In this document: positions 1 to 7,093 of the stretch, in pieces | Position numbering within the stretch: position 1 is the first letter of the stretch | Layout of the letters: the number at the start of each line of letters is the position of its first letter | Virus record (IMG/VR): IMGVR_UViG_3300046318_000474 | Location: 1-37,002 of that record | Direction: 5' to 3' (one strand) | DNA from: a virus | DNA: 37,002 nucleotides | Position numbers and translations under genes: made by a program | Notes under the pieces: generated by a model | What the model was told of the DNA's origin: nothing | Seen by the model: the letters and a program-made list of their open reading frames with translations, nothing else | The model's database searches: none

Positions 1-1865
1 ATACCACTCATATCAGATTCAGTCGCCGGTGTTTGTATCACTGGCGAACTTTTGTTTGGGTTGATGTTCGGTGGTGATTTCGGTTTAGGTGTTGATGGAA
101 TTGGTGCAGGAGTTCTGGATTCCACCATGGCAGTGGTTTTGGCTATCGCCGCCGCTTTTGCTAATGGTTCTAACGGAGCACCCTTTGGTGTGATATCACG
201 CATTTCATAATGTTCAGCACCAACCAACGCTGCACCGGCTTTACCAAATAATTTCTTTCCCATCTCAAAAACATTTGTGACAGTATCAACTGCACCTGCC
301 AATGGACTTTCACCGCCGCCAACTCCTGATATTCCTTCTGGACCGCCCACAGATACGTGCATATGATTATAATGTCCAGCAGTACGCCAAAGAACATTAT
401 ATCCTGCGGCTTCTAATTGTGGTTTTAATGCATCAAATTTTGCAGCTGCAACAGGATCATCAGCATCATTACCACTAACAATATTTAAATCGATTGCTTG
501 ACCACTGTAATGTCTAGAATTTGGACTGTGTTCACCGACCGGACCAAACGCAGCATTTTCACTTACTTTAATCCCCTGCCCTTGCAAATATTTTCCTAAT
601 CCAACAATATCATTTTTAGGTATTGCACCCTGTTGTGATATTTTAGTTGCATCTTGTTTACCGCCCGCTGGAGAATTCTGCGCAGCTGTTGTCATTAAAA
701 GTGGCGTCGCCTGTGCTGCTGAGGCCGGCGTATTCTTTGCAGCAGGTGTAACAAATGACGTTGGTTGTGTAGTGGATGCGGTTGATGAAGATACTTTCCC
801 AGTACTAGATTTTACACCAGGTGAAACAGGAGCGGATGGAACTGTTTGCTGTTGTGATGCAGTATTGATACTTCCAGTATCAGGAGGATTTATTGGTTCT
901 GGTCCAACACCAGAAGCAGTTTCTGTAAATGTTTTCCCACCACCCGCCGGAATTGCTGACGTCAATCCACCATCAACTATCGGTTGAGTTACTTTTTTTG
1001 ACGAAGTGGGTTGTGTTGAATTGGGTCCTAATTCATTGATATCACGTTTGTTATCTTTACTTCCCAATAACCATTCAAAAGCAGAATTGATTGTTTTAGC
1101 AACGTTGCCAACAAAATTGGCAACACCAACACCAAAATCAGTAACATCTTTGAGTGTTTCTTTTACAGGATCAAATTGCAATGCAATAACTGCAGCCAAT
1201 GCTGTTGCGGCTGTCATCTCTCCTTTGCCACTTTCTTTTTCGGCATCAGGTTGTTTAACTTCCTCAGGTTGCGCATCAACATCTTTTGCTTCAATATTAG
1301 CTTCTTTAGTTTGCGCTATTTCCTTTGCAGAAATTGCTTGTTTATTTTGTAGTTGTTGTTTGAGATAACCATCGATCGATGCCAATTGGTTGATCATGGC
1401 AACCAATGGTTTATTGATGTTAGCGTGTTTATTTTTTACAAGTGTGCCGCCACCAGTTTTTGGTTTCTTGGGATCTCGTGTTGTTTTTACTTTGGTTTTT
1501 TGTAGACCGGCTTCACCTGAGATTCCAAAGCCAGCAGTAAGATCTATATCAGGAGAGTCATTCTTTCCAAAACGTGGTACTGCATTGCTTAGTGTGCGTT
1601 GAAGACTGTCTGGTGCACGAACCTTAGTCTTCTCATCAATCCATCCCTGATTGGTATCATAGACGTATTTTTGTCCATTGATCGATATTGGATCGACTCG
1701 TTTGTCAATTTTGACACGCAATTTCTTTTGAACTGGTTCGTCTATTACCAGACTGTCGAGTAGTCTGATCAATCCTTTATCTGCAGGTTGTTTCGTTTTA
1801 GAATCTATCCAACCCTTATCAGCATCTTTGATAAACTTCTGATCGCCTATTGTTACTGGTGTCAT
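1..1865 (-). CDS. Tail hub/tape-measure-associated protein with M15-type peptidase domain (3' end outside window)
   Basis: The frame is open from an ATG at 1865 to the left edge (621 codons seen), with no stop. The ATG overlaps the upstream stop as ATGA, implying translational coupling. Seen in order: two copies of a GWIDxKTK repeat (about residues 3-39 and 59-95); a TGGGTL segment (137-142) followed by a helical 'LASID' stretch; a low-complexity Ser/Thr/Pro linker; then a metallopeptidase signature, SRHYSGQAID (H452, D459) and HYNHMHVS (H501, H503), matching the Zn-ligand pattern of M15 D,D-peptidases. After it, MGKKLFGKAGAALVGAEHY (535-553) closely resembles a segment of the neighbouring 706-residue protein. 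Inferred role: a virion-associated peptidase that cuts peptide cross-links in peptidoglycan during DNA entry. The C-terminus is unknown. The peptidase call is fairly firm; the exact place in the tail is not. Confidence 0.75.
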   Translation of the reverse strand, partial: MTPVTIGDQKFIKDADKGWIDSKTKQPADKGLIRLLDSLVIDEPVQKKLRVKIDKRVDPISINGQKYVYDTNQGWIDEKTKVRAPDSLQRTLSNAVPRFGKNDSPDIDLTAGFGISGEAGLQKTKVKTTRDPKKPKTGGGTLVKNKHANINKPLVAMINQLASIDGYLKQQLQNKQAISAKEIAQTKEANIEAKDVDAQPEEVKQPDAEKESGKGEMTAATALAAVIALQFDPVKETLKDVTDFGVGVANFVGNVAKTINSAFEWLLGSKDNKRDINELGPNSTQPTSSKKVTQPIVDGGLTSAIPAGGGKTFTETASGVGPEPINPPDTGSINTASQQQTVPSAPVSPGVKSSTGKVSSSTASTTQPTSFVTPAAKNTPASAAQATPLLMTTAAQNSPAGGKQDATKISQQGAIPKNDIVGLGKYLQGQGIKVSENAAFGPVGEHSPNSRHYSGQAIDLNIVSGNDADDPVAAAKFDALKPQLEAAGYNVLWRTAGHYNHMHVSVGGPEGISGVGGGESPLAGAVDTVTNVFEMGKKLFGKAGAALVGAEHYEMRDITPKGAPLEPLAKAAAIAKTTAMVESRTPAPIPSTPKPKSPPNINPNKSSPVIQTPATESDMSG

Positions 1866-3982
1866 GCCGCGAACTTCCAGTGTGCCAGGTACGTCATGAT
1901 CAGATCCTTACCGCCTGGATAATTAGGATCTAGAGCACCGAGTGTCCCGTCGTTAGATGCTTGTGATATTGATTTTTGTCCAGCTGATGCAGCTAGTGAC
2001 GGCCCAGACTCAGATGTCTTTTGTGCATCACCGGCAATAGTTGCTGTTTCAATTTTCTTAGATAGATCTTGTATCTTTTGACTCGGCCCGTCGATCTTTT
2101 CATTTAGTGGTTTATACGTATAATTTTGTGCACCGACTATAGCCGCACCGGCTTTACCAAAGATCTTTTTACCCATAGCCAACATGCCTTCAAGACTGCC
2201 TGGTGCTGCTTCACCGCCTGATCCACCTCCGCCTTGTAGATTGGCATAATTACCACCAGCAATCGATGTTGCATTGGCTTGTCTTTGGGCTATAGCTGCA
2301 CCAGATGATCTCTCATATTTGCTGTCGACAATAGCAGCAGCATCAGCAGCAGTTGTTGCTCCTCTCAATGCATTGCCGGCTGCTTTTTCAGAATTATTGA
2401 GTTCCCAATTAACAAACTCTAATTGTTCCTGGAAATTAGATTCTCTAATAGATTTTCCATATTGTCTTTCGAACTGGGCTTGTCTATCTGGATGCCATTG
2501 TGCAATACCATACGCATCTCCACCGTCACCTTCTGCATCTGTTCTTAATCCGGATTCTACAAACAAATTGCCGACAATACCAGACGCCTGTTCTTTAGTC
2601 CATCCTTTACTTTCAAAAAAAGCTTGTGCTTCTTCGGGACGACCTGTTTCAGACTTTGCTTTGATTCCTGTTGATGGAACTGCAGCTTTTGTGGCATTGC
2701 TAGTTGCTGTGTTTCCTGAAACTGTTACAGCCGCGGCTTTTCCTGGAGCATCAACATCCTTTGTGTTTTTCCATTCTTGATATGCATCCCATATAGCAAC
2801 TGCAATATCGTATATACCCCATACGAATAGACCAGCATTGAAAATAGCCATGGCTATACCTGGTATCGCTCCGATGCCGGTGCCTGCCAATAGGAAACCA
2901 CCGACAACTTTAGCTAGAATACCAGCAATTTTCTGCATGACCTTCTTGCCGAGGCGGCGTTCAAGGATAATAAGAAACCGCCTGCCGCCCCTTGTAGCAA
3001 ACCATGCTGTAGCCTTTTCAGCTCCTTGCAATCCCGCTTTTCTTGCTGCACCCTTTCCGGCACCAGTCATTGTTGCATAATTTGGTTTTTTTAATACATC
3101 TAGTGCCTTCATCCCCGCGCCAGCTCCTAGTTTTTTAATACTAGATCTGACACCTAATGCACCGATACCTGCTATAAAAGCGCCTTTTCCGGCACCGGAT
3201 TCTGCTTTTATTGGATTTCCATTTTCGTCTTTTGGCTGCAATGGATTTAATGATGAGTGCCATAATTTATCAAATACGTATTCGGCTACAATACCCACCA
3301 AACCGCCTTTTACGCCGCCTTTTAGGAAACCAATGAAACCGCCGACTCCAATGAAAGAAGCCATATCAACCAACCAGCCATAATCTTTCTTGAATGCCTC
3401 AACATTTTGTTTTAAAGCATCTAATTCAGTTGTATCTAGTTGACTGATTCCTAATGCACCGAGGCCTGCAATCAGCGCGCCGCCGGCTAATATTTTGTTG
3501 GCCATCGACGAACTGGGTTTTTTATCCATCCAACCCATATTTTCAAACATCGTTGTTTTGGTTTTATTTTCTACCGCAGCTTCTTTTTCTGCTTGTACTT
3601 GCTTTTGATAAGCAACACGATCATTTTCTATCTGTGTTCGTAATGTATTATCAATAGATGCAAGATATCCAACAGCAACAGCTAAAAGTTTCTCTGTTGG
3701 CATCTTTTCATTGAAGGCCGGTTTTGCTGCTTTTTTGGGAGTTGGTAAAGTACCACCACCAGTAGTTACCTTTTGTGTTCCAGCAGTGCCGGCTATACCA
3801 ACATTACCGATAACGGATTTTGTGGCATTGGGTTTATCTTCTGCATTAGCAGCATCAGATACTCCTTTAGCAAGTCCTTTGGCAAGTCCAGATGCCGCAC
3901 TGACGATTGAACCTGCCGCGTCAACAGCAAGTCCTAATCCTTTTACAGCAGTCTTGCCGATGAATATACTAGCGAGGCCCAT
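1862..3982 (-). CDS. Tape-measure-like/tail hub protein with embedded lysozyme-like domain
   Basis: 706 residues. The start overlaps the previous stop (TAATG). Seen: a Gly/Ala-rich N-terminus; TGGGTL near 74-79; a charged helical, probably coiled-coil stretch 95-140; several hydrophobic Gly/Ala-rich segments (about 163-180, 205-236, 266-278, 352-396); a lysozyme-like domain (about 447-560) with VGNLFVESGL-type motif (candidate catalytic E476) and YGIAQW (491-496), matching the phage tail lysozyme fold; and MGKKIFGKAGAAIVGAQNY (603-621), shared with the next gene. Hydrophobic segments and a position directly after the gp26/frameshift chaperone pair are typical of tape-measure proteins, which set tail length and enter the envelope with the DNA. 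No protein of the T4 gp29 type is otherwise visible here. It could instead be a hub lysozyme. The lytic domain is confident, the tape-measure role inferred. Confidence 0.7.
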   Translation of the reverse strand: MGLASIFIGKTAVKGLGLAVDAAGSIVSAASGLAKGLAKGVSDAANAEDKPNATKSVIGNVGIAGTAGTQKVTTGGGTLPTPKKAAKPAFNEKMPTEKLLAVAVGYLASIDNTLRTQIENDRVAYQKQVQAEKEAAVENKTKTTMFENMGWMDKKPSSSMANKILAGGALIAGLGALGISQLDTTELDALKQNVEAFKKDYGWLVDMASFIGVGGFIGFLKGGVKGGLVGIVAEYVFDKLWHSSLNPLQPKDENGNPIKAESGAGKGAFIAGIGALGVRSSIKKLGAGAGMKALDVLKKPNYATMTGAGKGAARKAGLQGAEKATAWFATRGGRRFLIILERRLGKKVMQKIAGILAKVVGGFLLAGTGIGAIPGIAMAIFNAGLFVWGIYDIAVAIWDAYQEWKNTKDVDAPGKAAAVTVSGNTATSNATKAAVPSTGIKAKSETGRPEEAQAFFESKGWTKEQASGIVGNLFVESGLRTDAEGDGGDAYGIAQWHPDRQAQFERQYGKSIRESNFQEQLEFVNWELNNSEKAAGNALRGATTAADAAAIVDSKYERSSGAAIAQRQANATSIAGGNYANLQGGGGSGGEAAPGSLEGMLAMGKKIFGKAGAAIVGAQNYTYKPLNEKIDGPSQKIQDLSKKIETATIAGDAQKTSESGPSLAASAGQKSISQASNDGTLGALDPNYPGGKDLIMTYLAHWKFAA

Positions 3983-4164
3983 TATTTTCTTCTACTTTCG
4001 AGTTCTTGTTTTTGTTCTTCAAGATATGACATCAGCATATCAACATATAGATCTCTTTCATAAGGTATTAAGTTTTCAATCTCTGTTATTGAATATTTAT
4101 GGTGTTGAGCCATCGAGAATATCATAGAGTAATATACTTGAAGTGTCGTATGACTCAACCCCAC
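3982..4164 (-). CDS. Second frame of tail assembly chaperone, probably made by -1 frameshift from the gp26-like gene
   Basis: A 60-codon frame that overlaps the 3' end of the gp26-like gene in the -1 frame and ends with TAATG at the start of the tape-measure-like gene. Its only early start codon is a GTG at 4164 with no Shine-Dalgarno sequence, but the frame continues upstream through the T7 run of the gp26-like gene. The product is short and charged, with an 'IPYERDLYVDML' motif and an acidic/basic helical tail. Small second frames placed just before the tape-measure gene are the hallmark of lambda G/GT-type chaperones; T4 has gp51 in the comparable place after gp26. I infer that it is made as the C-terminal part of a fusion of about 295 residues. 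Independent translation from GTG is the alternative. Confidence 0.65.
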   Translation of the reverse strand: MGLSHTTLQVYYSMIFSMAQHHKYSITEIENLIPYERDLYVDMLMSYLEEQKQELESRRK

Positions 4165-4173
4165 ATAAAAAAA
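4101..4173 (-). promoter_or_regulatory. Candidate -1 programmed ribosomal frameshift site (slippery T7 plus stem-loop)
   Basis: On the minus strand the gp26-like codons read GAT TTT TTT ATG TGG GGT TGA, so T TTT TTT (4173-4167) is an X XXY YYZ heptamer in frame, four codons before the stop. Seven bases later GTTGAGTCAT (4159-4150) can pair with ATGGCTCAAC (4113-4104) in a 10-bp stem with one G-U pair, extendable past one mismatch by two G-C pairs (4162-4161 with 4102-4101). The loop is 36 nt. Slipping back one base continues as TAT GTG GGG and enters the 60-codon second frame. Heptamer, spacer and stem all fit the known pattern; efficiency cannot be judged from sequence. Confidence 0.7.
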
Positions 4174-4887: not shown

Positions 4888-6057
4888 TTATGGTATTGTT
4901 GTATTAACAGTTGTAGGTGGCTGGGTTGTTGATTTTGTAGTGTTATTGACGAACCGCTCAATATATGGTGGAACTGCAATAGTATAGTCACCGACTATCT
5001 GCGAATCACCAAATATTGGTCCTGAGGCACTTTGTCGGCTGCGCTGCAGTGCCGTAATAGCAATATTACCAGGATTAGCTTTTTCTTCATCTGGTGATTT
5101 AGTAGATGCACGTGCGGCCGCATCTTGTTGTGCATCCATATAAAGAGCATTGGCACCAACTTTAGGTGTCTTCATGATCATATCGGTAAACGCAAATGTA
5201 ACATTATATTTCATCAATTGGTTTTCATCATTCCATGCCATGTTTATACTCTGAATGGAAATAGGAAATGCATCAAAAATATTGTATTCGATAGTAGTAT
5301 TTAACTGTCTATCATATACAAATACACTGACTTTGCTATTTGAGTAGTCATCTTTAAAGCCGACTTCATATGGTTCATAAGCATTAAACTCACCAGTGCT
5401 GATCATGTCAGCACCACCTTTTGAATCATGATTGACAATCAGGTTGATCCATTTATTAAAGAAATCGACGATCTCCGAATTACTATCTACAATCCATTGA
5501 AGTGTAAAGTCACCAAAGTTGACGTTGTATGGAACGATTTCAGTTGGACCATATCCATACCGACGAACAGCTTCTTCTTTGATTATTGATACACCAGGAA
5601 GAATAGCATTATCGCATCTCATGATAAGTTTATCTTTATTAATAGTCATGTAACTATTAAGAGCTTTGGTCAACTCATTAGTGTTACCATCATCATCGTA
5701 AGATCTAAATGGCGCAAACCTAACCAAATAACTGTGGGTTGCAACCGTTCCATAGTTATCAATTTCGGTTCTAAAATTGTTAATGTTGAATGTCGTCACC
5801 TTACTTCCGGTAACTGTAATCTCACCATTGAAGTTTCTGGGATCGTTAGGATTGTTCGGATCACCTGTCGACAGTGCACCGTTTTGTATTTCTTCATTCG
5901 TTGATGTTGCAGAAGCAAAATCATTGACTGTCTGGCTATATGCCTTTGGGGTGTATTTGACAACTGTATTGTCTAATCCCACTCCTTTTTGTGTCTCTTG
6001 TCCTGCGGCTGCAATAGCTGTATCCATGTCAGCTAAAAAGGTTGGATTGTCTGCCAT
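4888..6057 (-). CDS. 54: Tail-tube-fold baseplate protein, gp54-like tail tube initiator
   Basis: 389 residues; the ATG overlaps the previous stop (TAATG). The middle part has the tube-fold pattern seen in T4 gp19/gp54: an extended strand ending 'ILPGV', an 'FTLQWIVDSNSEIVDFFNKWINLI' helix segment (a mutable target-plus-width pattern), then 'VSVFVYDRQLNTTIEYNIFDAFPISIQSI' and 'NQLMKYNVTFAFTDM'. The T4 gp54 C-terminal half has the same order: strand, residue change around a tryptophan helix, 'FTGCIPISVS', then 'DVTFAYRVM'. Residues 1-75 and 335-389 are low-complexity arms. The product should sit at the start of the tail tube on the baseplate. A duplicated tail tube protein is the main alternative. 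19 nt separate it from the gp26-like gene, with no promoter seen. Confidence 0.6.
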   Translation of the reverse strand: MADNPTFLADMDTAIAAAGQETQKGVGLDNTVVKYTPKAYSQTVNDFASATSTNEEIQNGALSTGDPNNPNDPRNFNGEITVTGSKVTTFNINNFRTEIDNYGTVATHSYLVRFAPFRSYDDDGNTNELTKALNSYMTINKDKLIMRCDNAILPGVSIIKEEAVRRYGYGPTEIVPYNVNFGDFTLQWIVDSNSEIVDFFNKWINLIVNHDSKGGADMISTGEFNAYEPYEVGFKDDYSNSKVSVFVYDRQLNTTIEYNIFDAFPISIQSINMAWNDENQLMKYNVTFAFTDMIMKTPKVGANALYMDAQQDAAARASTKSPDEEKANPGNIAITALQRSRQSASGPIFGDSQIVGDYTIAVPPYIERFVNNTTKSTTQPPTTVNTTIP

Positions 6058-6653
6058 TATTGACCCCTAAAGATTTTCTTGGATTCTGCCCAGACCTGCG
6101 TCTTTGTTGCTTTGACAAAACGTTCTGTCGGCAGAAACAGAGCAACGTCCCATTCGGAAGGATACACATACATGAATCTAGAACGAACATGCGCATCTAG
6201 ATAGTGTTTCACGCACGGTTCAAAATACTTTAACTTCGAAACTGATTGCAATAACGAGTAATTCATCTTGATCTTGGTAGATTCATCGTACCGTGTATTG
6301 TTGGCATAATCATATAAACCATCCATCAACTTAGCACGAAATTGTGGTGGGAGATAGTGAAGGTTGATACCATAGAATCCACCTTTTACCTTACGGAAAG
6401 GAAAGATCAACGGGAATCTATCGTAGTATGCCAGTTCTTCTTTGTATTTCGGATCATAGTAGAACATGTACATCTGACCAACAATCGGATTACTGACCAG
6501 TCGTGCAGTGTCACCTTTCATCAGGGTACGTTCATTAACACGAGAGATCTTTCTGGCAGTTTCACGAAACCAATCGCGCGCTCCTTGGGTACGTGCCGGG
6601 ATCTGACCGGAACGGACACCTTGTGTAATGATTGAATCGAATACCGTCGCCAC
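6057..6653 (-). CDS. 2: gp2-like DNA end protector / head completion protein
   Basis: 198 residues, GTG start at 6653 overlapping the gp4 stop (TAGTG). The pattern 'MYMFYYDPKYKEELAYYDRFPLIFPF', then 'GFYGINLHYLPPQFRAKLMDGLYD', 'FEPCVKHYLDAHVRSRF' and 'WDVALFLPTERF' is one I associate with the T4-like gp2 family, the protein that protects DNA ends from host RecBCD and completes the head. T4 gp2 is longer (about 274 residues). In T4, genes 2 and 4 are adjacent, and the direct coupling to gp4 here supports the call. The assignment rests on recall of family motifs, not on a search, so it is moderate. A general neck or head-completion protein is the alternative. Confidence 0.55.
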   Translation of the reverse strand: MATVFDSIITQGVRSGQIPARTQGARDWFRETARKISRVNERTLMKGDTARLVSNPIVGQMYMFYYDPKYKEELAYYDRFPLIFPFRKVKGGFYGINLHYLPPQFRAKLMDGLYDYANNTRYDESTKIKMNYSLLQSVSKLKYFEPCVKHYLDAHVRSRFMYVYPSEWDVALFLPTERFVKATKTQVWAESKKIFRGQ

Positions 6654-7093
6654 TAAAATTTTATCCCTAATTCATACTCGGTCAAGATCTCGAACTTCCA
6701 TCCACGATCTTTGCAATAGTTGCCGGCTGCTTCCCACTTCGAGGAGTTGATTCCCCATGTCTGCACCTCGGTGATGTAACGCTTATTAGGCTTATTTATG
6801 ATCTTTGGAGGAGAGCATTGTGCCTTTGGTTTGATCTCTACGATGACTGTATCGATCTTGCCATCTGGTGTTTTCTTTTTGATAATAAAGTCTGGAAAGT
6901 ATCTATGGACTCGACCGTCAATTGGGGATCGATAGGGGATAACAAGTTCTTCGCTCCCCCATTGTATTACTCCAGGATGACTATCTAGCCATCCCATAAA
7001 TTTTAGTTCCCACCGACTTCTATACACAATATTCGATGGATCACCCAGATATTTTTGAGGATTTCTAGGTTGAAACTTTCCTTTGTATGCCAT
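6653..7093 (-). CDS. 4: Head completion protein gp4, PD-(D/E)XK nuclease-like
   Basis: 146 residues. N-terminus MAYKGKFQPRNPQKYLGDPS and following 'YRSRWELKFMGWLD' match T4 gp4, which fixes the start at 7093. Nuclease-like motifs: W28-E29, then YFPDF (D68) and VEIKPK (E86, K88), the arrangement of TnsA/PD-(D/E)XK enzymes. T4 gp4 is about 150 residues, so this is full length. In T4 the protein is needed to finish the filled head before tail joining. No Shine-Dalgarno sequence precedes the ATG; instead a late-promoter box ends only five bases upstream, so the transcript could be nearly leaderless. It is the first gene of the minus-strand late operon. Confidence 0.85.
   Translation of the reverse strand: MAYKGKFQPRNPQKYLGDPSNIVYRSRWELKFMGWLDSHPGVIQWGSEELVIPYRSPIDGRVHRYFPDFIIKKKTPDGKIDTVIVEIKPKAQCSPPKIINKPNKRYITEVQTWGINSSKWEAAGNYCKDRGWKFEILTEYELGIKF

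Follow-up and report, generated by a model that had tools for sequence, protein, structure and literature searches.

In phage lambda, a single gene located between those for the tail tube and the tape measure protein provides a short and a long product, G and GT (Xu, Hendrix and Duda 2004), of which the short form binds the tape measure, while the extension present only in the long form binds the tube protein (PMC5009743). A 2016 review calls this G-T frameshift conserved among long-tailed phages, 'except T4' (PMC5009743). T4-like phages were studied by Vladimirov, Gautam and Davidson (2022; Virology 566:9-15), known to us through citing papers only, which credit that study with identifying T4-like tail assembly chaperones, with the observation that some T4-like phages use a short plus a longer fused gene instead of a frameshift (PMC10274946), and with poly-T slip signals in T4-like chaperone genes (PMC12846349). 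A -1 frameshift that had escaped annotation has also been described for other families of long-tailed lytic phages, in the tail chaperone gene at the TAC locus of phage Adele (Vandenendeviridae/Andersonviridae), where the motif is shorter, GTTTTT; the accessible parts of that account note no hairpin analysis (PMC12846349). Our literature search found no open paper on gp26/gp51 frameshifting. Going by these partial accounts, the kind of phenomenon described below is already known, as is probably the basic claim; the hairpin covariation, the breadth of the comparison and the survey of absent start codons may be new.

Here, we analyse a locus in the window, i.e. the whole 37,002-nucleotide stretch of DNA that makes up the 37 kb virus record IMGVR_UViG_3300046318_000474 (IMG/VR). 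Very probably, one gene of this virus gives rise to two tail assembly chaperones by -1 programmed ribosomal frameshifting of the lambda G/GT type. As in lambda, this gene sits between tail tube and tape measure genes and is predicted to yield a short and a long product; unlike lambda, it features a slip site consisting of U only, a strong 3' hairpin and a chaperone of the PF12322 family.

The gp26-like gene and its -1 frame

The window carries a T4-like tail operon with the order tube, chaperone, tape measure (table 1), and a tube gene directly upstream of the chaperone gene is found in several relatives as well. At its 3' end the gp26-like gene reads CTC AGA GAT TTT TTT ATG TGG GGT TGA, with the seven T in the register X XXY YYZ (GA[T TTT TTT]) and three sense codons ahead of the stop. 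A lone heptamer of this type is not rare, because 13 in-frame X XXY YYZ heptamers occur in the approximately 11,300 codons of the window; the tape measure gene also has an in-frame T TTT TTT, at its codon 454, which we put down to chance. Downstream of the heptamer and a 7-nt spacer, GUUGAGUCAU pairs with AUGGCUCAAC 36 nt further on, forming a 10-bp main stem with one U-G pair, and beyond one mismatch five outer pairs are possible. Folding of an 81-nt segment gave a dG of -24.1 kcal/mol versus a mean of -12 for shuffled sequences (z -4.65), with none of 200 shuffles being as stable.

The fusion of the gp26-like gene with the -1 frame is 295 aa long by computed translation (junction NLRDFFYVGL), and the -1 frame matches positions 58-115 of the 121 positions of phrog_634, termed 'baseplate hub assembly catalyst'. 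Its Pfam match to Nup192 (E 0.007) misses the cut-off and was dismissed as chance. The window contains a single chaperone gene with its -1 frame, corresponding to one match in its own record, which may be a fragment. An earlier note, written from the letters of the window alone, had described most of this correctly: the heptamer with its coordinates and counts, the spacer and the extendable 10-bp stem with its U-G pair, as well as a fusion of about 295 residues. It had also named a GTG as the only early start in the -1 frame; the GTG is indeed there, at 4164, but a TTG at 4158-4156, which overlaps the TGA, had been overlooked. In most close relatives this TTG is replaced by CTG (GGC TGA).

Table 1. 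Features of the chaperone locus and its neighbours (window coordinates).
Feature	Position	Strand	Evidence
Tail tube gene (gp19-like), upstream of the gp26-like gene	4888..6057	-	PF06841/PF23849, phrog_45
gp26-like gene, short form, TAC-N tail assembly chaperone, 237 aa	4155..4868	-	PF12322 E 3.2e-57; phrog_150 E 1.2e-61; AlphaFold model pLDDT 90.8
Slippery heptamer T TTT TTT	4167..4173	-	Sequence; at the same junction in 321/321 relatives as T TTT TTT/C/A
Outer stem extension, 5' arm, 5 bp past one mismatch, pairs with 4098-4102	4161..4165	-	Fold; conserved only in the closest clade
Main putative stimulatory stem, 5' arm, 7-nt spacer after the heptamer	4150..4159	-	Fold; covariation
0-frame stop TGA	4155..4157	-	Sequence
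Main putative stimulatory stem, 3' arm	4104..4113	-	Fold; covariation
Outer stem extension, 3' arm	4098..4102	-	Fold; conserved only in the closest clade
gp51-like C-terminal module encoded in the -1 frame, ending with TAA 3984-3982	3982..4167	-	phrog_634 E 2.2e-21; conserved protein alignment; module in frame in T4 gp51
Tape-measure-like gene with tail lysozyme domain, 706 aa; ATG starts on the last A of the -1 stop (TAATG)	1862..3982	-	Sequence; domain/family matches

A structure search with the model of the gp26-like protein finds viral gp26 proteins, and nothing in the PDB below E 0.001 among the matches listed. The HK97 chaperone 2ob9, the most probable PDB match among the best 50 listed, is not significant (prob 0.63, E 0.96, TMt 0.41 over 72 columns), and the likeness of the modelled fold to it is suggestive only; a PDB sequence search with gp26 yielded nothing but chance matches to guanylate kinases. 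Elsewhere in the window, a gp4-like head closure gene (6653-7093) matches the N-terminal domain of TnsA-like endonucleases (PF08722, E 5e-23) as well as phrog_218.

The slip site and downstream hairpins across relatives

IMG/VR was scanned with gp26 and the -1 module as queries, which recovered loci down to approximately 37% identity. Among the resulting 321 loci are the window itself, one duplicate (L081) and a pair of overlapping loci from a single contig; clustering at 70% identity left 109 lineages, for which all figures exclude L081. In each of these 321 loci, all of which have a recognisable -1 module, the junction carries T TTT TTT, T TTT TTC or T TTT TTA in register, and gp26 stops 0-8 codons past the heptamer; the six loci lacking a module match are T4 and five contigs that end at this point. 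In the same genes, a slippery form occurs at 1 of 107 other Phe-Phe pairs and at 10 of 24,460 other in-frame positions. Outside the T4 branch, the relatives included none with both frames but no slip site; in that branch the long gene is separate and in frame, as expected from the earlier note's equation of gp26/gp51 with G/GT. The protein encoded in the -1 frame is conserved across the alignment of relatives, and the same junction is present in GenBank phages of Synechococcus, Prochlorococcus, Caulobacter, Sinorhizobium, Ochrobactrum, Desulfovibrio, Stenotrophomonas, Vibrio and Aeromonas.

At the level of RNA structure, an 80-nt fold slid along the 109 lineages shows a mean z of -2.27 directly after the heptamer, versus 0 to -0.5 at most positions. 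Measured against -1 frames recoded synonymously, z averages -2.74; it lies below -2 in 66% of the lineages and is -5.17 in the window, whereas three gp26 segments that served as controls for this recoding gave means of -0.1 to -0.4. About a third of the lineages have no significant stem. A second, weaker fold signal (mean z approximately -1.1) is seen across lineages some 20-60 nt inside the next, i.e. the tape measure gene.

For covariation, 62 relatives of the window's clade were picked by protein identity and not by pairing. In this set the stem of the window is paired in 77% of cells, as compared to 26-44% when slid by 1-3 columns; double-sided stem changes amount to 25 cells versus 9.2 in shuffles, and the covariation score of 0.178 (versus 0.137) is reached by none of 500 shuffles. 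Covariation was also counted on the inner stem. Examples of compensatory changes are AGU/GCU to UGU/GCA (L109) and AGU/GCU to AAU/AUU (L126). Other lineages have unrelated hairpins at the same place, e.g. a perfect 14-bp stem in S-PM2. RNAalifold gave no consensus structure for the 62-sequence clade set, probably because this set mixes lineages with different hairpins. The conservation of the T7 run, with its variants ending in C or A, and the compensatory changes in the stem were the two checks across relatives that the earlier note had proposed, and both support its claim that a -1 frameshift joins the gp26-like gene to the second frame.

What the sequences show is the slip site, the frame layout, their conservation, RNA structure with covariation and homology to T4 gp26/gp51; slippage itself, how efficient it is and what the two products do are inferred. 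Most ribosomes would end at the gp26-like TGA and release the short form, TAC-N, of 237 aa, whereas a minority, stalled by the downstream stem, would slip back by one base on U UUU UUU and append the C-terminal module of approximately 60 residues to produce the long form, TAC-NC, of approximately 295 aa. Most likely, this slippage involves two Phe tRNAs in tandem on U UUU UUU and is promoted by the hairpin. If the lambda G/GT pair is a guide, the short form would coat the tape measure protein, with the extra module of the long form recruiting the tail tube protein. Among the points that count against frameshifting here, besides the lineages with no significant stem and the missing RNAalifold consensus, is the modest strength of U UUU UUU as a slip site, with A AAA AAG ranking well above it in synthetic constructs in E. 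coli (PMC5009743).

Start signals, annotation and alternative readings

In GenBank, many cyanophages and Vibrio phages have the -1 frame annotated as a separate small gene 51, which in the window would require ribosomes to reinitiate at the frame's own start codon (GTG 4164 or TTG 4158) once they have terminated on gp26. This seems very unlikely, since 37 of the 109 lineages lack any ATG, GTG or TTG in the -1 frame between the previous stop and module residue 12, and 69 lack an ATG. A Shine-Dalgarno-like motif is found in one of the 109 lineages, versus 77 of 106 gp26 starts. Taken alone, a missing Shine-Dalgarno sequence is a weak argument, because the next gene often has none either (16 of 94 have one) and coupling that is free of such a sequence is possible in this operon; the absence of start codons is the stronger argument. 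Moreover, the annotated 'gp51' starts are scattered, with some lying within the conserved module (P-HM2, C48C1), and some GenBank records annotate nothing at the -1 frame. A separate gene would also leave unexplained both the universal heptamer with its stem and the fusion of the module to a full gp26 domain in T4 gp51. All this is evidence that the 'gp51' annotated in cyanophages is a frameshift extension. PHROG 634 itself, the 'baseplate hub assembly catalyst', has apparently been assembled from pieces of a frameshift product; the part of T4 gp51 that aligns with the first half of this family is the end of the gp26-type domain.

A homopolymeric run could also make RNA polymerase slip, so that an mRNA with one extra U would encode the fusion, and the T run is indeed extended to eight in 15 of the 109 lineages and to nine in one. 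This reading is disfavoured because half of the lineages (54 of 109) have six T only, followed by C or A, a pattern that suits tandem tRNA slippage. Six T are a short run for polymerase slippage, and the long homopolymer of approximately 8-9 or more that is typical of genes with transcriptional slippage is not kept in the relatives. As a selected stem just downstream and a strict frame register are also ribosomal hallmarks, we regard polymerase slippage as very unlikely. Finally, the heptamer might reflect nothing but a protein motif (DFF or SFF) accompanied by chance stems, with the -1 frame remaining unused; in line with this, the arms of the stem coincide with the conserved residues LSH and AQHH. 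Yet TTC accounts for 28% of the Phe codons elsewhere, other Phe-Phe pairs are hardly ever slippery, the stability of the stem exceeds that expected from synonymous recoding, and the -1 protein is both conserved and homologous to the C-terminus of T4 gp51, which makes this reading almost certainly wrong.

Relation to T4 gp26 and gp51

In T4, the genes for the hub assembly chaperones gp26 and gp51 are divergent and separate. Both T4 gp26 (E 8.8e-64) and gp51 (E 3.9e-52) cover the whole PF12322 profile, whereas of the two only gp51 matches phrog_634, with its residues 147-246. A profile of the -1 module matches gp51 of T4, Aeromonas phage 50AhydR13PP and Serratia phage Muldoon as well as the long gene of Klebsiella phage phi1_146002; it matches neither of the two short forms scanned, T4 gp26 and the Klebsiella short gene. 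The Klebsiella phage presents a third arrangement, with long and short chaperone genes in tandem and overlapping by 14 nt (L344:2001-3294). T4 gp26 and gp51 are divergent paralogous genes for a short and a long form, and as gp51 carries a gp26-type domain and the -1 module in a single frame, it corresponds to the frameshift product. The short product of the window and the fusion are, module for module, homologues of gp26 and gp51, respectively; unlike the window with its one gene plus -1 frame, T4 has two divergent genes without a slip site. The earlier note's proposal that gp26/gp51 is the counterpart of G/GT is therefore supported, but not its notion of a short gene plus a second piece, the two being full paralogues.

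At the end of T4 gp26 (GAG TTC TTT GAG) the Phe pair is kept and the slip site is gone. A single gene with the slip site has been kept in Vibrio KVP40-type and in Aeromonas Ah1- and 65-type phages, which also belong to the Straboviridae. Because a scan of IMG/VR with T4 gp26 gave only 6 loci, what we say about the T4 branch comes mainly from GenBank records. In 45 of 96 related lineages, the ATG of the next gene overlaps or abuts the -1 stop (at a distance of -1 to +3), as does TAATG in the window, and tape measure translation may therefore be coupled to frameshifted ribosomes. The distribution of slip sites among T4-like phages tentatively suggests a scenario to which we give somewhat less than even weight: frameshifting would be ancestral in T4-like phages, with the T4 branch having duplicated the gene and frozen the two products as gp26 and gp51, and with the other lineages having kept the slip site while repeatedly swapping their hairpins for unrelated ones in the same position; given the overlapping or abutting start codon, tape measure synthesis may in addition be fed by frameshifted ribosomes and its dose be tied to that of the long chaperone.

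On the frameshift reading, in the records examined 'gp51' or 'baseplate hub assembly catalyst' is a mis-annotated separate gene. Beyond annotation, the T4-like chaperone genes offer more than 100 natural downstream regions, most of them with a hairpin, all solving the same frameshifting task.
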